A stretch of DNA of 64,000 nt from Gluconacetobacter sacchari. GTDB taxonomy: Bacteria > Pseudomonadota > Alphaproteobacteria > Acetobacterales > Acetobacteraceae. Location: the NCBI RefSeq assembly GCF_014174255.1, contig NZ_JABEQJ010000014.1, forward strand, positions 1 to 64,000, given 5' to 3'. The first letter of the stretch is position 1. Each line of letters begins with the position of its first letter. Under the pieces are notes generated by a model, which saw nothing but the letters and a program-made list of their open reading frames with translations, searched no databases and had not been told where the DNA came from. Positions 8,520 through 17,510 of the stretch are shown here, piece after piece. Made by a program: the position numbers and the translations under genes.

Positions 8520-9778
8520 CCGACCAGCGACGCGGTCTGCGCGATCTGCTCGGGCGTATGGGACGCGCTGACGAAGAAGCGCAGGCGCGCCGCCTTTTCC
8601 GGCACCGCCGGGTGGATGATGGGCTGGACATTCAGCCCGCGTTCGAACAGGGCCTGCGACAGCCGGCCGGCCAGCAGCGAACTGCCGGTGACCAGCGGCA
8701 CGATACCATAGCCCTCCGAGGTGCCGGTATCGAAGCCGGCTTCCTTGAACAGGCGCAGCAGATGCATGGCATTCTCGCGCAGGCGCGCGATGCGCCAGGG
8801 TTCCTCGCGGATGATGTCCAGCGCGGCCATCGAGGCCGCGGCGTTGGTCGGCGGCAGCCCGACGGAATAGACGAAGCCGGCGGCGGTACGCTTCAGATAG
8901 GTGACGATGTCGGCGCGCCCCGCGATATACCCGCCGCAGGAGATCAGGCTCTTGCTCAACGTGCCCATCCACAGGTCGATCGCATCCGGGGCCACACCGG
9001 CCTCTTCGGCGATGCCGTGCCCGCGCGCGCCCAGCACGCCGGTCGAATGGGCCTCGTCCACCAGGGTCATGCAGTCGAATTCGCGGGCCAGGTCGACGAA
9101 GGCGGCAAGGTCGGGAATGTCGCCGTCCATGCTGTAATGGCCTTCCAGGACCAGCAGCGCGCGCTTGTGGGCCCGGCGATGCATCCATAACTGCTCGCGC
9201 GCCGCCGCGACGTCGTTATGGGTGAAGGCGATGCGCCGCGCGCCAGACAGGATGGCGCCCTGGATCAGGCTGTTATGGGCCAACGCATCATGGACGATCA
9301 GGTCGCCCGGCCGCATGAGCTGCGACAGCGTGGTCACGTTGGTCGCATGGCCCGATACCATCACCACGCAATCCTCCGCACCGTGCCAGTCGGCCAGCGC
9401 GCCTTCCAGTTCGCGATGGAACGGGCGCTCGCCCGACACCATGCGGCTGGCCGATACCGTGGTGCCGAAGCGGTGGAGCGCATCCTCCACGCGGGCAATC
9501 ACCCGCGAATCGCCGTTCAGGCCCAGATAGTCGTAGGACGAGAAATTGATGTAGTCGTGCCCGTCGATCCGGGTCGTGGCCCCGGCCAGCCCGTCATGCT
9601 GGCGGAAGAACGGATCGGCGACGCCCAGCGCCGCCGCCCGCTTCTCCATGAACGCCATTTCCTCCACACCCGGCAGGGACCAGCCGCGGGTGCCCCCCGT
9701 CGCCGGCGCCGCACCCGCCAAGCTGGCCATCAGCTTGATGCGCTCGCCCAGCCGGCGGCCGAATTTGGGTCCCGTCAT
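8492..9778 (-). CDS. PLP-dependent alpha-oxoamine synthase (BioF/SPT/RkpG-like)
   Basis: 428 residues, fold-type I. FSSYDYLGLNGDSRV, GHATNVTTLSQL, VDEAHSTGVLGARGHG and the Schiff-base region MGTLSKSLISCGGYIAG are all present. The family condenses an acyl thioester with an amino acid, releasing CO2, as in biotin or sphingoid-base synthesis. The ATG at 9778 overlaps the stop of the giant polyketide synthase (ATGA). The synthase ends in a carrier domain and has no thioesterase, so this enzyme is a good candidate to off-load its chain as an amino-ketone. The rhizobial RkpG next to RkpA is the closest known arrangement. BioF itself is unlikely, since no bio genes are nearby. Confidence 0.88.
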   Translation of the reverse strand: MTGPKFGRRLGERIKLMASLAGAAPATGGTRGWSLPGVEEMAFMEKRAAALGVADPFFRQHDGLAGATTRIDGHDYINFSSYDYLGLNGDSRVIARVEDALHRFGTTVSASRMVSGERPFHRELEGALADWHGAEDCVVMVSGHATNVTTLSQLMRPGDLIVHDALAHNSLIQGAILSGARRIAFTHNDVAAAREQLWMHRRAHKRALLVLEGHYSMDGDIPDLAAFVDLAREFDCMTLVDEAHSTGVLGARGHGIAEEAGVAPDAIDLWMGTLSKSLISCGGYIAGRADIVTYLKRTAAGFVYSVGLPPTNAAASMAALDIIREEPWRIARLRENAMHLLRLFKEAGFDTGTSEGYGIVPLVTGSSLLAGRLSQALFERGLNVQPIIHPAVPEKAARLRFFVSASHTPEQIAQTASLVGQALRALSE

Positions 9779-12700
9779 CGAGTCATTTCTTCTTCGTTCG
9801 AAAGCGCGGGTTCGGGAATGTCCGCGGTTTCCGCCACGGCGTGGCGTTCCTCATCCGACAGGTGGCGCGCCATCACGGCTTCATCCGGCGTGGCGGCGGC
9901 GGTCTCCTGCCCACCCTTGTTGCCCAGCAGGGTGGATACCTGGCGCGCGACGCGGCGAACCGTCATTTCCTGCCAGGCAAAGCCGGGCAGCGACACGCCC
10001 AGCCGGCGCTCCAGCCCCAGCGCCAGTTCGACCGCCGTCAGCGAATCCATGCCCAGCTCGGCCAAAGGCTGGTCCAGCGGCAGGGCCTCGCGGTCGGTCT
10101 GCATGATGCGGGTCAGTTCGCCCAGGATCAGGTCGGCGACGATTTCCTCCCGCCGTTCCGTGCCGGCCGTGGCCAGCAGGCTCATCAGGTCGCCGGTATC
10201 GCCGTCCTCGTCCCGGCGGCGCGTGACGGCGCCGAACAGGGGCTCGCTCAGGATCGGCAGGCTGCCCGTGGCCTGCCAGTCCATTTCGGCCAGCACCGGC
10301 CACGGGTCGGACGAGGCCAGCAGGTCGGGCAGGGCGTCCAGCGCCGCCATCGATCGCATCGACCGCGCGCCCAGCCGCCGGTCCAGCGCCTCGCGCGCCG
10401 CCTCGTTGCGTTCCAGGAAACCGGCATCGGCGATCGGCCCCCAGCGGACGGCGCAGCCGGGCAGCCCGGCGTCGCGCCGGCGCTGGATCAGCGCCTCGAC
10501 CGCCGCATTGGCCGCGACATAGGCTCCCTGGCCGGGCGCCCCCAGCGTGATGGTGGCGGACGAGAAGACCAGGAACAGCGACAGCGGATCGTCGCGGGTC
10601 AGCCGGTCCAGCGACAGCGCGCCGGCCAGCTTGGCCTGGACCGATGCCGTCACCTGTTCCTCGGACAGGGTGGCGACCAGCCCGTCCGCCACCGTGACGG
10701 CGGCATGCACGATCCCGCCCAGCGGCGGCATGGTGGCCCGGATGTCGTCGAGCAGGCTCGCCAGCCGGTCATGGTCGGTCACGTCGCAGGCCCGGATTTC
10801 CACGGTCAGGGCCCCGGCATCCAGCAATGCGTCGCGCAACGCGGCGACGCCGTCGGCCGCCGGCCCGCGCCGGCTGACCAGCACCAGGTGGCGGGCGCCA
10901 CGGCTCACCAGCCACCGCGCGGCGCGCGCGCCGAAGCCGCCGGTGCCGCCGGTGACCAGCATTGTGCGATCGGCAGGCACCTCCAGCGCCGCCGGCACCT
11001 GGACCGGCCCCATCGTCAGCACGATCTTGCCGACATGGGCCGAACTCCGCATCAGCGCGAAGGCATCGGTCGCGGCGGAGGCAGGGAAGGCGGTATAGGG
11101 CAGCGGCCCGACCGCGCCGTCTTCCAGCAGTGCGTGCAGCCGGTCCGTCACGGTCGAGACCAAGTCCGGACGATGGCGCACCAGCGCGTCGACATCGATC
11201 GCATGATAGCTGACATTCTGCCGCAGCGGGCCGACGCCGACGCGGGTATTGGCCAGGAAGTCGCGCTTGCCCAGTTCCAGGAACCTGCCGAACGGACGTA
11301 CCAGTTCCAGGCTGCGTTCCATGGCCTCGCCGCTGAGGGCATTGAGCACCACGTCCACGCCCTGCCCGTCGGTGGCGGCCAGCACATCGGCGCCGAAGCG
11401 CAGCGAACGGCTGTCCAGCACGGTTTCGATCCCAAGCTCCCGCAGCGCCGCGCGCTTGGCGGGCGACCCGGCGGTGGCGACGATGCGCGCGCCGACATGG
11501 CTGGCATACTGGATCGCGGCCAGGCCGACACCGCCGGCCGCGCCATGGATCAGCACCGTTTCGCCGGCCCGCAGCGTGCCGACGGTCTCCAGCGCGTACA
11601 GCACCGTCAGATAGGTGACCGGAATGGTGGCGCCGGCCGCGAAGGACAGCCAGTCCGGCAGGGCGAAGACGCTGCGCCGGTCGGTGACCACGCGGCTGGC
11701 ATGCGCGGCGGCGGCCAGCGCCATGACCCGGTCGCCGGGAGCCAGGTCGGTGACCTCCGCGCCCACGTCCAGCACGGTTCCCGCGCACTCCATGCCCAGC
11801 GTGGCGCCGGCGAACCCGTCCAGCAGCAATTCATCGGGCAGCATGCCGATGGCCGACAGCACGTCGCGATAATTCAGTCCGCTGGCCCGGACGTCGATCA
11901 CCACCTCGCGCGGGCCGGGCGGCACCCTTGGCTCCGGCATCCAGCACAGCCGGTCCAGCGGACCGGGAACCGGCTGGATCAGCCGCACATCCGTCTTCGC
12001 TTCCGTGGCGCGGGCCGGCAGGCCCTCGCGCAGGCGGCGGACCAGCCGGCCTTCCGCCGTCCAGCGCACGTCGCGCTCGCCGTCGGTGGCATGGCGTTCC
12101 GCCTCCAGCGCGGCCGCGATGGCGGCCTCGGTCAAGGAGGCCGCCAGGTCGATCCGACGGCAGCGCAGGGCAGGGAATTCGTTGGCGATCGTCCGCCCCA
12201 GGGCGGCGCGCGCCGCCTCATGCGGGGTGGCGGCGGCGTCGCGGGTAACGATCGCCAGCCAGTCTCCGGCCTCGGCCGCCGCGCGGGCGTCCCGGGCCAG
12301 GGCCAGCACCGCGCGGATGGTACGGACGGCGTCGTCCGAATCCTCATCCTGCGCCGGGGCATGGGACAGGCGCAGCACCGGCGGCGCGGACACGGGCGCC
12401 GCCTCCGCCTCCGCCTCCGCCTCCGTTTCCTCCGCCTCGACCGCGACCGCCGCCAGCAGGGCGAGCGGGAAGGGCGCCCGGGCGGGAACGCTCTCGGCCA
12501 CCGCGCGCAGGCGATGCGGCAGGTCGCGCCATGCGGCGATCGTCAGCAGCGGCTCGGGCGACAGGTCGCGCAGGGCCGTCCAGCCCGCATCGTCGGCCGC
12601 CTCGGCAACCAGGATCAGCCCGCCCGGCGCCAGCCGGTCGGCATGGGCGAGCGTCACCGCCGGCACCATGCCGTGCAGGCCGGGAGCATAGGCCACCAGA

Positions 12701-15700
12701 ACGTCATACGCGCCCTCCGGCACGGTCTCGGCCATGACGATACCGGGCAGATGGGCCAGCACGGCGGGGCGCAGCCGGGCCTGCCGCTCGCGATTCGGTT
12801 CCAGGATCGTGTAGTCGAGGCGACACGCCAGGCCCGCCAGCCGCGGGACCAGCTGGCGGGTCAGGGCTGCCCGGTCGGCATGCAGTTCCAGCACGCGCAC
12901 CGGACGGTCCTCCGGCCAGTCGCGCGTATAGGCGGCGATGGTGCCGGCGATCTGCTCGGCCGCCAGTTCCACGCTGCGGCCCGACAGCAACTGGCGGAAC
13001 GCGATATCGGGAAAGGCATCGTCGCCGCGCGCGGCATCCGGCTCGGCGCCCGTCCGTTCGTCGACCCACGCCAGCAGCAACGCCGCGGGCAGCCATTGCG
13101 GCAGGTCGAGGAACAGCGTCTGCCACAGCCGGGCCGGGTCGGGCGCATCGGTGGCGGCAGGCGCCGGCTGCGCAGTGCGTCCGGCCAGGATCGTATGGGC
13201 CAGCAGCCCGGCATCCCGGTCGTCGTCATCGCCCACCGGCGTTTCCATGGCCGGCCGCAGGGCCAGGAACCGCTCGTCGGACAGCAGGGGCGGCGAGACC
13301 GGCGACGGCAGCCAGATTTCGTGGAAGCTGCGCTCGGCGACCGGAACGGGGCGTTCGCCCGGCATGCGGGTGAACCAGCAGCCGGTGGCCGACAGCACCG
13401 CCCGGCCGGCGGCGTCCAGCATCACGATGTCGGCCTCGGTCTCGCGCGGGCCCGACATCGTGACGGCGGCCTGGCCGCGCGCGGGCGGCCCGGCCGTCAG
13501 GTCCAGCCGGATGACGCCGAACTTGCGCGGCAGCGGCGCCTCGGCGGCTCCGGCGTCGGCATGGTTGACGGCCAGTCCGACCAGGGCCTGGAAGGTGCCG
13601 TCCAACGCCGTCGGATCCAGGGTCAGGCCCTCGATCGGCGCCTGGCCGGTCAGGCTGGCCTCGACATGCCCCGGCGCCATCGCGATCGCATCGACCCGGC
13701 GGAAAGCCGGTCCATAGGCCAGCCCGGCGGCGCGGGCGATCGCATACAACGCCTCGCCCGTCAGGCCGCTGCCGGTGGCGGCCGGCGGCAGGGCGGCGGG
13801 GGCAACGGAGGCCACGCCGGCGCGGGCGGTGGCATGGCGCGTCCAGACCGCGTGCGACAGCCGGGGCCGGCTGTCGATGGTCACGGCGCCATCCGCCGCC
13901 AGCCGGACCCGGATTTCACGCAGATGCGCCTGTTCGATGATGACGGGGCGCAGGATCTGGAAATCGCGCAGTTCCAGCAACGGCGCGTCCGGCCATGTCG
14001 CGCGGGCGGCGGTAAAGGCGAATTCGATCAGGCAGGCGGCGGCCAGGACAATGGTGTCGCCGACCTTGTGATCGGCCAGCCAGGGCTGCACCGCGCCGTC
14101 CAGATGCGCGGTCCATTCGTTGGATTCCCGCTTGCCATGGTCGCCCAGCAGCGGATGCGTGTCCTGCTGGTTCCACAATACCGCCAGCGCTTCCTCGGTC
14201 GGCTCGTACCAGTGCCGCTCGCGCTGCCACTGCACGCCGGGCAGGCCCCGGGCGCGGGCGGGGCCGGCGAAACGCGGCGCGGACAGGATGTCGCAGCCCG
14301 CGGCGAAACAGCTCAGCGCGGTGCGGGGGAACGGATCGGCGGTGATCTTCGCCGGCACCGCCGGCATGACGCGGGTCTGTGCGTCGCCACCTTTCAGGAT
14401 GTCGCGCAGATAATGTTGCAGCACCGGCCGGGGAGCGATCTCGACGAAAACCGTGCCGCCCTCGGCGGCCGCCCGGCGCACCGATTCGGCAAACAGCACC
14501 GGCGCGCGGACATTGCGCCACCAGTAATCGGCGTCGGGAAGGGTGGCAAAGGGCTGGCTGGTCACGGTCGAGATCATCAGCCGGTCCGGCAGGCGAGCGG
14601 TGATCTCGCCCAGGTCGCGGATCAGCGCCTCGGCGATCGGGTCCATCTGGCTGCTGTGATAGGCATATCCCACCTTCAGGCGATGGATCAGCAGCGTGGA
14701 AGCGTCCTTCGCCGCCTCAAGGCGATCGAGCGCTTCGGCCGCTCCGGCCACCGCCAGCGCGCTCGGGGCGTTGAAGGCGGCGATTTCCAGGCTCGGCGCG
14801 GCCTCGGCCAGCAGGCGCGCGGCCGCCTCGGCATCGCCATGGATCGCGGCCATGCCGCCGCCGGGCGCGGTGGCCTGATGGCGGCTGCGCAGGGCGACGA
14901 TGCGCGCCGCTTCGGCCATGTCGAGCATGCCGGCATGCACGCCGGCCGCGATTTCCCCGACGCTGTGGCCGACGACGATATCGGCCTTCAGCCCCTGATG
15001 CTCAAGCCCGCGCAGGGCGCCGATCTGGAACGCGAACAGCATGGGCTGGGCGATATCGGCCGGATCGGCCGACCAGTCGCCCGAGCGCATCGCCTCCAGC
15101 ACCGACCAGCCGAGATGCGGGCGCAGCGCGGCATCCGCCTCGGCCACGCCGGCGGCGAAGACGGGGCTGATCGTCAGCAGGTCCTGCCCCATGCCCGAGA
15201 ACTGGCTGCCATTGCCCGAAAACACGAACACGGTGCGCGCCTGGGCCAGCGCCTGCCCGGTCACGATGTCCGAATGGGCGCGTGTCTCGACCCAGGCGGC
15301 CAGCGCCGCGCGCATCTCCGCGGGGTCTCCGCCCGGCACGCCCAGGCGATGGGTCAACTGCGCGCGGCGGGTCGCAGCACCGCGCAGGTCGGCATCGGTC
15401 CAGGTCCGGGTGGACCAGACCCGCGCGAGGCTGGCCAGGCCGGCCTCGGACCGCGCGGACAGCAGCAGCGGCACCGCTTCGTCCGGTGCGGCGGTCGTGG
15501 TGGAGTCCGGGGCGGCCGCTGGCGCCGGCGCGCTGGCCAGGACCACATGGGCATTGGCGCCGCCGAAGCCGAAATTGTTGACGCCGGCGATCAGCGTCCC
15601 CTCCGCCAGAGGCCGGGCTTCGGTGACGATTTCCAGGTTGAGTTCGGCGAAGGGAATCGCCGGATTGGGGGTCGCGCAATGCAGCGAGGCCGGCAGGCGC

Positions 15701-16830
15701 CGGTTCTGGAGCGCCAGCATGGCCTTGAGCATGCTGACCAGGCCCGACGCCGGTTCCAGATGGCCGAGATTGGTCTTGACCGAGCCGATCGGCAGGGGCG
15801 TGTCGCGCAGTTGGCCCAGGGCGGTGCCCAGCGCATTCGTCTCCACCGGGTCGCCTGCCGGGGTGCCGGTGCCGTGCGCCTCGACGAAAGCGACCTGGTC
15901 GGGCGACACGCCGGCCTTGCCATAGACCTCGCGCAGCAGGGCCGCCTGGGCCTGGGCACTGGGAAAGGTCAGGCCCGGCGTCCGGCCGTCGGCGTTGATT
16001 CCACTGGCCATGATCACCGCGCGGATGTCGTCGCCGTCCCGCCGGGCCGCCGACAGGGGCTTCAGCAGCAGCACGACGCCGCCTTCGCCACGCACATAGC
16101 CGTCGGCATCGGCGCTGAAGGCGTGGCACCGCCCGGTCGGGGACAGCATGCTGGCGGCGCAGAAGCCGATGAAGGGGTAGGGCGACAGCAGCATGCTGAC
16201 CCCGCCGACCAGGGCCACTTCCGTCCGTCCGGCGCGCAGATCCTCGCAGGCCTCGTGCAGGGCGAACAGCGAGGACGAGCAGGCGGTATCGATGGTCATG
16301 CTCGGCCCATGCAGGCCCAGCGCGTAGGAGATGCGGTTGGAAAAGATGCTCAGCGTGTTGCCGGGCATGAAATAGGCATTGCCCGACGACGGGTCGGTCA
16401 GGCGCATATTGGCGTATTCGAGGCCCGACGCGCCGACATAGACACCGGCCGAGGCGATCTGGTCCGCCGTCGTGCCCGCGTCTTCCAGGGCTTCCCAGGC
16501 CAGTTCCAGCAGCAGCCGCTGCTGCGGGTCCATCTGCCGGGCCTCGCGGGCCGAAATGCCGAAGAAGGCGGCGTCGAACAGTTCGATCTCATCCAGCGTC
16601 GCCGCCCGGGTGGCATAGAACTTGCCGGTCTCGCCGCGCCGGGGGTGCCAGAAATCCCGCAGGGGAAAGCGGTTCGCCGGGATCGGGCGCACGCTCTCGC
16701 GTTCCTCGTCCAGAAGCTGCCACAGGCTGATAACGTCCGGCGCCCCGGGAAGGCGGCAAGATGCGCCGATGATGGCGATGGGCTCGTCCCGAGTAATGGT
16801 ATTCGGCTCGGACGTCGAACTGTTATGCAT
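9775..16830 (-). CDS. Highly reducing type I polyketide synthase (RkpA-like)
   Basis: 2351 residues if it starts at ATG 16830 (MHNSSTSEP). An ATG at 16908 would add 26 residues, and neither has a strong ribosome site. Domains in order: ketosynthase ~20-440 (Cys in DTACSSS ~184, EAHGTGTPAGDP, NLGHLEPASG); acyltransferase ~530-830 (GHSVGEIAAG, Ser ~623); dehydratase ~890-1130 (HPLLGDH; His ~921; DPTALDGTFQ); a methyltransferase-like region ~1250-1400 lacking a glycine-rich SAM loop; a KR-structural stretch; enoylreductase ~1630-1930 (HGAAGGVGLAAIQYA); ketoreductase ~1950-2150 (VTGGTGGFGARAARWL); carrier protein with LGMDSLTAVEL (Ser ~2263). There is no thioesterase. It probably builds a saturated chain iteratively for a capsule lipid. 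Confidence 0.9.
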   Translation of the reverse strand: MHNSSTSEPNTITRDEPIAIIGASCRLPGAPDVISLWQLLDEERESVRPIPANRFPLRDFWHPRRGETGKFYATRAATLDEIELFDAAFFGISAREARQMDPQQRLLLELAWEALEDAGTTADQIASAGVYVGASGLEYANMRLTDPSSGNAYFMPGNTLSIFSNRISYALGLHGPSMTIDTACSSSLFALHEACEDLRAGRTEVALVGGVSMLLSPYPFIGFCAASMLSPTGRCHAFSADADGYVRGEGGVVLLLKPLSAARRDGDDIRAVIMASGINADGRTPGLTFPSAQAQAALLREVYGKAGVSPDQVAFVEAHGTGTPAGDPVETNALGTALGQLRDTPLPIGSVKTNLGHLEPASGLVSMLKAMLALQNRRLPASLHCATPNPAIPFAELNLEIVTEARPLAEGTLIAGVNNFGFGGANAHVVLASAPAPAAAPDSTTTAAPDEAVPLLLSARSEAGLASLARVWSTRTWTDADLRGAATRRAQLTHRLGVPGGDPAEMRAALAAWVETRAHSDIVTGQALAQARTVFVFSGNGSQFSGMGQDLLTISPVFAAGVAEADAALRPHLGWSVLEAMRSGDWSADPADIAQPMLFAFQIGALRGLEHQGLKADIVVGHSVGEIAAGVHAGMLDMAEAARIVALRSRHQATAPGGGMAAIHGDAEAAARLLAEAAPSLEIAAFNAPSALAVAGAAEALDRLEAAKDASTLLIHRLKVGYAYHSSQMDPIAEALIRDLGEITARLPDRLMISTVTSQPFATLPDADYWWRNVRAPVLFAESVRRAAAEGGTVFVEIAPRPVLQHYLRDILKGGDAQTRVMPAVPAKITADPFPRTALSCFAAGCDILSAPRFAGPARARGLPGVQWQRERHWYEPTEEALAVLWNQQDTHPLLGDHGKRESNEWTAHLDGAVQPWLADHKVGDTIVLAAACLIEFAFTAARATWPDAPLLELRDFQILRPVIIEQAHLREIRVRLAADGAVTIDSRPRLSHAVWTRHATARAGVASVAPAALPPAATGSGLTGEALYAIARAAGLAYGPAFRRVDAIAMAPGHVEASLTGQAPIEGLTLDPTALDGTFQALVGLAVNHADAGAAEAPLPRKFGVIRLDLTAGPPARGQAAVTMSGPRETEADIVMLDAAGRAVLSATGCWFTRMPGERPVPVAERSFHEIWLPSPVSPPLLSDERFLALRPAMETPVGDDDDRDAGLLAHTILAGRTAQPAPAATDAPDPARLWQTLFLDLPQWLPAALLLAWVDERTGAEPDAARGDDAFPDIAFRQLLSGRSVELAAEQIAGTIAAYTRDWPEDRPVRVLELHADRAALTRQLVPRLAGLACRLDYTILEPNRERQARLRPAVLAHLPGIVMAETVPEGAYDVLVAYAPGLHGMVPAVTLAHADRLAPGGLILVAEAADDAGWTALRDLSPEPLLTIAAWRDLPHRLRAVAESVPARAPFPLALLAAVAVEAEETEAEAEAEAAPVSAPPVLRLSHAPAQDEDSDDAVRTIRAVLALARDARAAAEAGDWLAIVTRDAAATPHEAARAALGRTIANEFPALRCRRIDLAASLTEAAIAAALEAERHATDGERDVRWTAEGRLVRRLREGLPARATEAKTDVRLIQPVPGPLDRLCWMPEPRVPPGPREVVIDVRASGLNYRDVLSAIGMLPDELLLDGFAGATLGMECAGTVLDVGAEVTDLAPGDRVMALAAAAHASRVVTDRRSVFALPDWLSFAAGATIPVTYLTVLYALETVGTLRAGETVLIHGAAGGVGLAAIQYASHVGARIVATAGSPAKRAALRELGIETVLDSRSLRFGADVLAATDGQGVDVVLNALSGEAMERSLELVRPFGRFLELGKRDFLANTRVGVGPLRQNVSYHAIDVDALVRHRPDLVSTVTDRLHALLEDGAVGPLPYTAFPASAATDAFALMRSSAHVGKIVLTMGPVQVPAALEVPADRTMLVTGGTGGFGARAARWLVSRGARHLVLVSRRGPAADGVAALRDALLDAGALTVEIRACDVTDHDRLASLLDDIRATMPPLGGIVHAAVTVADGLVATLSEEQVTASVQAKLAGALSLDRLTRDDPLSLFLVFSSATITLGAPGQGAYVAANAAVEALIQRRRDAGLPGCAVRWGPIADAGFLERNEAAREALDRRLGARSMRSMAALDALPDLLASSDPWPVLAEMDWQATGSLPILSEPLFGAVTRRRDEDGDTGDLMSLLATAGTERREEIVADLILGELTRIMQTDREALPLDQPLAELGMDSLTAVELALGLERRLGVSLPGFAWQEMTVRRVARQVSTLLGNKGGQETAAATPDEAVMARHLSDEERHAVAETADIPEPALSNEEEMTR
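12401..12424 (-). repeat. Hexanucleotide tandem repeat inside the polyketide synthase
   Basis: Four perfect GCCTCC units on the plus strand, followed by degenerate copies. They encode an alternating Glu-Ala linker just after the methyltransferase-like region. Being six-base units, changes in copy number would keep the frame. Confidence 0.8.
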
Positions 16831-17205
16831 GAAGAGATATGTGCCCCAATGCGATGATCGGACTACGATGTAACGCGGTCGGGTCGGGGCGAAAAGCCAT
16901 ATCGGCATTGAAAAAATAGTTCAGCTCGTTTCATGCGCCCCTGCCTTCGCAAAGATCGGATCAAGGCTCCATGCCCATGTGCATGGAGCCGGAAGCACAG
17001 GTGAAAGACGAAACGTCACTCCATTATTCTGCCCGGATATCCCCATGACCGCCGTGCATGTCGCGTTTATTCACCCGCAATAGCCACGGTTTCTGCGTCT
17101 TTTTTATGTCCTTCGCCCCGCCGGGCATGAAAAACGGATGGCGGGTTCGAACGGCGGCCGGGGACGTAGCGCGATCGGGGCGGAAAACGCTCCGCGAGCG
17201 CAGGG
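16831..17205. other. Intergenic region between the polyketide synthase and tRNA-Arg
   Basis: This 375-base stretch must contain the polyketide synthase promoter and any terminator of the leuS-to-tRNA operon, both reading on the minus strand. The only clear structure is the inverted repeat at 16965-16990. T-rich minus-strand sequence lies near 16911-16916. A 34-codon minus-strand frame at about 17128-17024 has no recognisable similarity and was not annotated. Confidence 0.45.
16965..16990. promoter_or_regulatory. Perfect 10-bp inverted repeat upstream of the polyketide synthase gene
   Basis: GGCTCCATGC and GCATGGAGCC are separated by 6 bases. It lies ~60-135 bases ahead of the candidate synthase starts and ~215 bases beyond the tRNA 3' end. 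There is no adjacent T-run on the minus strand, so an operator is as likely as a terminator. Confidence 0.4.
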
Positions 17206-17510
17206 TGGTGTCCGCGGCGGGATTCGAACCCACGGCCCCAGGATTCATCCCACTTCGGCTTTCGCCGCCGCCATCCGGAAATGGCGTTCGTGGTCTGGAC
17301 TGTCCCTTCACCCTGGGCCCGAAAGCCGACAGGTGCCGCCCGTCCAGTCTCTACACCGTCCCGGCAGGGCCGGGCTTGGCTCGGGATCGGCACGACACAC
17401 GGTGTCAGAGCGTTCCCCGAATTTGAGCGGATCCGTCATGAGGTTTCCCGCCATGACGCCCAATTTGAAAACCAGGAATCCTGTGCTCTATCCTGCTGAG
17501 CTACGCGGAC
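17206..17510 (-). tRNA. tRNA-Arg(CCU), split by a group I intron
   Basis: The minus strand gives 5' exon 17510-17474 and 3' exon 17245-17206, which join to a 77-nt tRNA. Acceptor strands GTCCGCG and CGCGGAC pair perfectly, followed by discriminator A and an encoded CCA. The D stem is GCTC/GAGC. The anticodon stem is CAGGA/TCCTG with loop TTCCTAA, giving anticodon CCT (reads AGG). The T arm is GTGGG-TTCGAAT-CCCGC. The intron sits immediately after the last anticodon base. The gene lies 61 bases after holA on the same strand and may be co-transcribed with it. Confidence 0.93.
17246..17473 (-). ncRNA. Group I self-splicing intron in the tRNA-Arg(CCU) anticodon loop
   Basis: 228 nt, with no internal reading frame for a homing enzyme. 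Exon CCU at the 5' site pairs with GGG inside the intron, giving the expected U-G wobble at the splice site (P1, loop UUCA). The intron ends in G, before AATCC. Core features: GTAGAGACTGGACGG on the minus strand around 17355-17341, whose CTGGAC (17347-17342) pairs with GTCCAG (17300-17295) as P7. A terminal CGGC-GAAA-GCCG hairpin (17267-17256) has a GNRA loop as in P9. Such introns (IC3-like) are known in Agrobacterium tRNA-Arg(CCU) and Azoarcus tRNA-Ile. Splicing itself is inferred. Confidence 0.9.

Follow-up and report, generated by a model that had tools for sequence, protein, structure and literature searches.

The tRNA-Arg(CCU) gene and its intron

The window, a stretch of 64,000 nucleotides from Gluconacetobacter sacchari, carries a tRNA-Arg(CCU) gene that is interrupted in its anticodon loop by a group I intron (Table 1). 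The first-pass annotation had described two half-tRNAs 228 nt apart on the minus strand that join into this tRNA, and its coordinates were right, with ARAGORN and the empty sites of relatives agreeing on them. ARAGORN in its default mode called no tRNA in the window, as predicted for finders tuned to uninterrupted genes; when introns were permitted (run on loci L005 and L007), it placed tRNA-Arg(cct) at 17510-17206, interrupted by 228 nt. When the exon halves were joined in several registers, more than one scored as tRNA-Arg(cct), and the join retained was that of a 37-nt and a 40-nt exon, in which a U ends the 5′ exon and a G ends the intron. This join agrees with the boundary seen at empty sites: a sequence search of 60 related genomes found the exons directly abutting in 18 (12 of the same family and 6 outside it), an empty site being a match to query positions 1-37 or 6-37 that abuts a match to 266-305 or 266-296, with the table read manually. 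The intron boundaries are therefore fixed to the base.

A 901-base search with the Rfam group I model RF00028 gave a match over the full length of the model (1-253 of 253; window positions 17478-17275) with 36.3 bits and an E value of 1.8e-7. The gathering score of the model is 50, so a default Rfam scan returns nothing for this intron. The two computational checks suggested at first pass, a group I covariance model and a tRNA search on the spliced exons, thus both gave a match, the former below the gathering score; the full-length match and the folding of the spliced exons as tRNA-Arg(CCU) bear out that the anticodon loop is where a group I intron sits. The next feature downstream, at 9775-16908, encodes a polyketide synthase-like protein of 2,377 residues (Pfam).

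Table 1. Features of the interrupted tRNA-Arg(CCU) gene in the window
Feature	Position	Strand	Details or basis
tRNA-Arg(CCU) gene with intron	17510-17206	-	305 nt
5′ exon, 37 nt, last base U36	17474..17510	-	sequence, abutting exons, ARAGORN
Group I intron, 228 nt, terminal G at 17246	17246..17473	-	Rfam RF00028, intronless relatives
3′ exon, 40 nt including encoded CCA	17206..17245	-	abutting exons, ARAGORN
P1: 5′ exon CCU with intron GGG, U.G at splice site	17459..17476	-	sequence; consensus pairs 35-39/49-53
Hairpin after P1, GAAA loop, compensatory changes	17434..17458	-	consensus columns 54-79
P7, 5′ strand GACTG	17345..17349	-	partner 17302-17298
P7, 3′ strand CAGTC	17298..17302	-	partner of GACTG strand
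Variable hairpin near 3′ end, both-sided changes keep pairing	17269..17286	-	consensus columns 264-289
GAAA-capped hairpin (P9 of the first-pass annotation)	17256..17267	-	consensus columns 291-302

Fold and covariation of the intron

A consensus fold was derived from an alignment of 20 homologous genes. It contains 95 pairs, those of the exons and tRNA included, and at 34 of them at least one sequence is altered on both sides with the pairing kept. Three elements read from the letters at first pass are present in both the sequence and the consensus fold: the U-G pair of P1 at the 5′ splice site, the G that ends the intron, and the hairpin capped by GAAA (P9). GAAA loops cap two of the intron hairpins. 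The P7 pairing had been given as CTGGAC/GTCCAG; this register is possible in just 44 of 187 relatives and was dropped for GACTN/N′AGTC, both strands of which are present in 184 of the 187. The N-N′ pair is Watson-Crick in 183 of these 184 (A-U 105, G-C 51, U-A 27), with one exception. The window intron combines the splice-site U.G pair in P1, a G as its last base, a covarying P7 and intronless alleles, as expected of a bacterial tRNA group I intron.

Small introns of this type are known from other bacteria. Those of Azoarcus tRNA-Ile(CAU) and cyanobacterial tRNA-Leu(UAA) are group IC3 introns in the anticodon loop; they share with the window intron that they are group I introns in a tRNA gene, but the host tRNA differs, and the window intron is classed as group I by the general Rfam model, which assigns no subgroup. 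Introns of tRNA-Arg(CCU) were first found in Agrobacterium, in line with the first-pass annotation, and the Bartonella intron BbgpI splices in vivo and in vitro, with guanosine-dependent self-splicing, in a gene that was also unannotated (available text of PMC7717549). The window intron resembles these two in its small size, host tRNA-Arg(CCU) and position in the loop, and differs in its lineage, the Acetobacteraceae, and in being known from sequence whereas that of Bartonella is known from bench splicing. It adds a member to a known kind: the intron is real but ordinary, both the ribozyme and its host gene having been described before.

Distribution and residency

The same intron was found in all 14 genomes of the genus that were sampled, and a very similar one interrupts a tRNA-Arg gene of Gluconacetobacter azotocaptans (L168), which points to an acetic acid bacterium as the probable host. 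In a sample of 36 genomes of the family, 22 carry the intron, the gene is intronless in 12, and the remaining 2 were uncalled. The presence of the intron here had been held to be the main point; it is indeed present, but with 22 of 36 family genomes carrying it, it is not unusual. All 13 sister genomes of the genus match the window upstream of the gene, whereas downstream 10 match and 3 do not; the intron is inherited with its locus within the genus. A second, intact tRNA-Arg(CCU) gene, which would have spoken against the locus, was absent from the 44 tRNA matches across the whole window genome (4.83 Mb in 114 contigs).

With very high confidence, we regard the feature as a resident gene for tRNA-Arg(CCU) that a 228-nt group I intron interrupts after U36 and whose transcript is spliced to the mature tRNA. 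Its structure, boundaries and conservation were established computationally, and splicing is expected from the fold and by analogy with the Bartonella relative. A precursor tRNA-Arg(CCU) would be transcribed whole, and the intron would fold so that its guide pairs with the last bases of the 5′ exon, the U.G pair marking the splice site. Guanosine would then be used for the cut at this site, and the exons would be joined after the terminal G of the intron to yield the mature tRNA-Arg(CCU).

The window genome also has a tRNA-Arg(UCU), which could read AGG by wobble, so survival of the organism is no proof that the window intron splices. Together with the Rfam score under the cut-off, this would suit a decayed remnant in a dead tRNA gene, with AGG read by tRNA-Arg(UCU). 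The exons and the catalytic core are (nearly) invariant over 20 sequences, however, while the loops vary with compensating changes, which makes decay most improbable. A recent import of the window copy on an integrative element, as can be the case for its tRNA-Leu, -Lys and -Thr cousins, might be suspected because the same intron family occurs in element-borne copies elsewhere, including in the window genome itself (see below). It too is very unlikely: no split tRNA-Arg(CCU) copy was found in the scanned flanks of 42 tRNA-Arg(CCU) introns of cells and plasmids, and the upstream flank is conserved in every sister genome. For want of split tRNA-Arg halves and with that flank conserved, we rejected the window intron as part of an element and retained the resident gene; an ancient import is possible.

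The intron family in other genomes and phages

The intron-core pattern was found in at least 118 stretches of named genomes; among the 80 matches listed, many are from alphaproteobacteria, and other phyla occur too. Intron-bearing tRNAs were classified with a script of our own that rewards a U ending the 5′ exon and a G ending the intron, so that the agreement of 187 of 187 introns with both features is partly built in. At least 188 distinct intron-bearing tRNAs were classified, and 108 of 332 core matches stayed unclassified, several of which are clearly tRNA-Leu by eye. Among these classified tRNAs, the hosts are tRNA-Leu(UAA) (117), Arg(CCU) (43), Lys(UUU) (9), Arg(UCU) (5), Thr(UGU) (4), Met(CAU) (3), Thr(GGU) and Asn(GUU) (2 each), and Leu(CAA), Lys(CUU) and Ser(UGA) (1 each), counts that draw on lower-bound scans of named genomes and viruses and are not frequencies. 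The intron always follows a U, at loop positions 33 to 36, which again is partly built into the classifier. On a tree of 187 introns made with a quick method, the host label changes 22 times, the minimum possible being 10; with 95 of its 184 inner branches open, this weakly supported tree suggests that the intron moves between tRNAs.

At least 38 of the classified intron-bearing tRNAs lie on IMG/VR viral contigs. Group I introns were seen there in tRNA-Ser(UGA), Asn(GUU) and Arg(UCU) (contigs L319, L292, L287 and L301). A group I intron interrupts a tRNA-Thr(GGU) at L029 1432-1724 in G034, a genome of the window's bacterial family, and another was found in Magnetovibrio (L092). In Gordonia phage Daredevil an intron-core-like stretch (L085 1501-1642) lies between an integrase gene and a small gene, where no feature is annotated; the classifier found no host tRNA for it.

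A tRNA-Leu(UAA) relative on plasmids

A blastn search of plasmids with the window tRNA gene and its near flanks matched 1,272 of 72,556 records, all at 60-80% identity (best about 76%). In plasmid pCTX-M3 (L002 3760-4228) the match proved to be an entire gene for tRNA-Leu(UAA), interrupted by a group I intron (Rfam, 36.8 bits; tRNA identity by script). It lies near an AAA ATPase gene, named tmrB in the available text of published papers, and aac(3)-IId, and the same neighbours were found in L001, L003 and L004, these four records (L001-L004) being those in which plasmid annotation was viewed. Near-identical copies covering at least 80% of the gene occur in 1,257 of the 72,556 plasmid records, and the same plasmid-type copy is present in 624 of 5,426 complete E. 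coli genomes. A match was found in 658 E. coli records, and in the 20 of them that were listed no annotated feature lies under the plasmid-type gene; it is on these 20 that the description as unannotated rests, since the plasmid gene table holds no RNA genes. No paper on the plasmid tRNA-Leu(UAA) intron was found in the literature as partially covered, in which two tmrB papers, in their available text, concern other, group II introns.

Enterovirga aerilata (L140) and a Bradyrhizobiaceae genome (L094) have copies that share 95% identity with the plasmid gene and its intron. In 1,139 records, at least 80% of the sequence between the element end (described below) and aac(3)-IId is present in one place. 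In pCTX-M3 this end, with its CTTAAAA core, lies inside a small open frame, and the sequence before the core in L002 is no tRNA half, as if the end had been inserted at a secondary site. Searches with tmrB, DUF3883 and two small frames for the donor of the module were given up, tblastn having found none of them outside plasmids in the loci collected.

Elements that split a tRNA gene and carry an intron-bearing copy

In Enterovirga aerilata (G777, L140), the Bradyrhizobiaceae genome (G778, L094) and G782 (L189), the native tRNA-Leu(UAA) gene ends in the anticodon loop, and a complete intron-bearing gene begins about 157 to 177 bases after it. In G777 and G778 the contig also carries the missing 3′ half, in the same orientation and at a distance of about 58.3 kb and 34.6 kb, respectively; the pattern used for these two found none in G782. 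The sequence common to both element ends in G777 and G778 is CTTAAAA, which is exactly the 7-base loop. A tyrosine integrase with Phage_integrase and Arm-DNA-bind_3 domains is encoded near the far end in both (loci L250 and L243). No other intact copy of the split tRNA was detected in G777, G778 or G782 within two mismatches of the pattern.

Two further cases show both displaced halves. In G010, a member of the window's genus, the halves of tRNA-Lys(UUU) are about 39.0 kb apart, and the segment C3:114928-153927 is a contractile-tailed prophage with an integrase at one end and terminase, portal, head, tail sheath and baseplate genes; its intron-bearing tRNA-Lys(UUU) lies 123 bases from the 3′ half. 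In Thiobacillus (L135) the halves of tRNA-Thr(UGU) flank about 2.4 kb that hold an intron-bearing tRNA-Thr(UGU), and no integrase was identified there, just an unassignable fragment. The shared end stretch contains the loop in both but is longer, 9 bases in G010 and 15 in L135. Thus both halves were seen in four cases, twice for tRNA-Leu(UAA) and once each for Lys(UUU) and Thr(UGU). Neither half was called a tRNA alone in any of the four, and the joined halves were called Leu taa (twice), Lys ttt and Thr tgt.

The window genome (G000) itself carries a tRNA-Lys(UUU) 5′ half (C20:88008-88274), 235 bases before the contig end, and the sequence after it is the element end known from G010. The only full tRNA-Lys(UUU) found in it is intron-bearing (C30:54107-54389), and the flank after this gene resembles, by eye, that after the intact gene in G005. 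Its intron scored 30.0 bits with an E value of 9.3e-6 in a 601-base Rfam search; in a joint search of ten loci neither this intron nor that of G010 reached an E value of 0.001. Our own patterns and the tRNA matches yielded no other intact tRNA-Lys(UUU) in G010 or G000, and the only other lysine tRNA found in the window genome is Lys(CUU). If the assembly of this genome is complete, the only tRNA-Lys(UUU) of the organism is therefore made by splicing.

Breadth of the pattern and the integrases

The flanks of 186 intron-bearing tRNAs were scanned for a second, split copy in the same orientation. The strict scan found 16 loci, with none on the reverse-strand control; at a looser threshold, within 1.5 kb, there was a same-strand match at 18 loci and a control match at one other. 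A half is present at all of the 22 loci examined except the plasmid L002, and at none of these 21 did ARAGORN call an intact tRNA. In total the exact loop was found at 19 loci (16 examined loci, including G777, G778 and L135, together with L406, G010 and G000), four of them with both ends, the 15 further genomes, the window's included, having one broken half. L406 was counted by eye, its contig ending inside the intron, and L096, L112 and L141 have altered loops.

Several candidates were set aside. At L188 and L401 a tRNA-Leu(UAA) 5′ half is followed by a tRNA-like 3′ part, which in L401 scores as a tRNA (36.1 bits), so neither was kept as a broken-tRNA case; the element ends of both hold, besides the intron-bearing copy, a 5′ half and a 3′ part whose variable arm is very short. 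The upstream match of L173, which like L188 was among the 16 loci of the strict scan, was dropped, its anticodon identifying it as a neighbouring tRNA-Leu(CAA), and by eye the loop matches downstream of L099 and at L142 and L174 look like chance. Phage contigs were rejected as attachment cases, as no viral locus appeared in the strict scan and five loop matches near the 38 viral tRNAs are unlike tRNA halves. At L114 a match to tRNA-Asn over 25 of 32 letters was noted.

A recurrent layout consists of a tRNA half, an integrase of about 420 residues and an intron-bearing tRNA-Leu(UAA), with the integrase ending 23 to 71 bases before the tRNA. This integrase family adjoins 12 of the 186 intron-bearing tRNAs; one of these 12 members, a fragment at L174, ends 168 bases before the tRNA. 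All 10 members tested match PHROGs integrase families, while Pfam gave partial matches, mostly below cut-offs, and none for L402, L406 and L403. The G010 integrase is about 30% identical to the family, and that of G777 is barely alignable.

Among 385 genomes of the window's class, the family had 17 matches in 13 genomes, of which L415 was left out of the locus analysis. The loci that point at tRNA-Leu(UAA) are L399, L405 (the same place as L414), L406, L402 and L401, and all five have an intron-bearing tRNA or core: in L406 this is the intron core, L402 was judged by eye with the intron copy 2 kb off, and L401 has a complete-looking tRNA upstream. L402 is a likely further case of a split tRNA, having a broken tRNA-like 5′ part, an integrase and, about 2 kb further on, an intron-bearing tRNA-Leu. 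The neighbour is an intact tRNA-Met at six loci and tRNA-Arg(ACG) at one, the arrangement of classical islands, and no tRNA was seen at L411 and L413. At L407 a complete intronless tRNA-Leu(UAG) lies downstream of the integrase and a tRNA-Leu(UAG) 3′ part upstream on the other strand, so the intron is not always needed. The anticodon stem of this replacement differs from that of the split gene, a difference that might serve the same end as the intron.

A possible role of the intron in replacement tRNAs

According to the available text of PMC4383910, the Islander method describes islands with a tyrosine integrase, an anticodon-centred crossover (2,083 of its islands) and a displaced tRNA fragment; the split tRNA gene is made whole again by a fragment that the island brings, and the method starts from intact tRNA genes. 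The elements found here are alike in the tyrosine integrase, identified by Pfam or PHROGs in G777, G778, G010 and the L099 family, in the displaced tRNA halves and in the crossover at the anticodon loop. In the four complete cases, unlike in such islands, no fragment restores the split gene at its end: the two halves remain apart, and the element contains a complete tRNA gene with an intron. L401 and L188, set aside above, may differ in this respect. Island finders that start from intact tRNA genes, Islander among them, would be expected to miss these elements. The word "intron" is absent from the available text on Islander, and no account of intron-bearing replacement tRNAs was found in the partially covered literature searched, including PMC4383910, PMC11476347 and PMC10448857; the pattern seems to be new. 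The phage introns known at the time of a 2014 review lay in protein genes (available text of PMC3984707), a picture beyond which the G010 prophage and the IMG/VR tRNAs extend.

The complete cases have split target genes, a shared end stretch that contains the loop, an integrase in three of four, and a complete intron-bearing copy inside the element. We put at about an even chance the proposal that group I introns of this family act as armour for element-borne replacement tRNAs, that elements carried tRNA introns between bacteria, and that the spread on plasmids went by way of one element end. The integrase would cut the host tRNA gene at the anticodon loop without restoring it, and the element would bring a full-length gene for the same tRNA, in which the intron separates the two sides of the loop at the DNA level. 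The integrase would then be blind to the replacement, while splicing would still yield a working tRNA; the copy would thus have to be expressed and spliced, and would stand in for the broken gene under the protection of its intron. Such elements may have ferried tRNA introns from bacterium to bacterium, and the intron-bearing, foreign tRNA-Leu(UAA) that lies beside tmrB and aac(3)-IId on more than 1,000 sequenced plasmids may have arrived there with one such element end.

The intron could instead be a passenger, the elements having taken their tRNA genes from intron-bearing hosts, a possibility that we rate somewhat short of even. L407, where a related integrase adjoins a complete intronless tRNA-Leu(UAG) beside a tRNA-Leu(UAG) 3′ part, fits such an origin, as do the 170 of 186 introns of the family whose tRNA genes show no trace of an element in the flanks scanned. 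Against it, the intron recurs for three tRNAs with distant integrases (27 to 31% identity over part of the length, or no match), it interrupts the very loop that lies inside the stretch common to both element ends, and it is present at all five tRNA-Leu(UAA)-pointing loci of one integrase family in the 385 genomes. A protective role would offer a possible answer to an old question, that of small group I introns in the anticodon loops of many tRNAs across distant bacteria: replacement tRNAs split by introns and carried on elements would give the introns a means of transport as well as a function. Some bacteria, probably including that of the window, would then obtain an essential tRNA only through ribozyme splicing on a mobile element.

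The tRNA-Thr remnant element of Thiobacillus also contains two small adjacent frames (L135 4537-5141), which we take to resemble a ParD/ParE pair.
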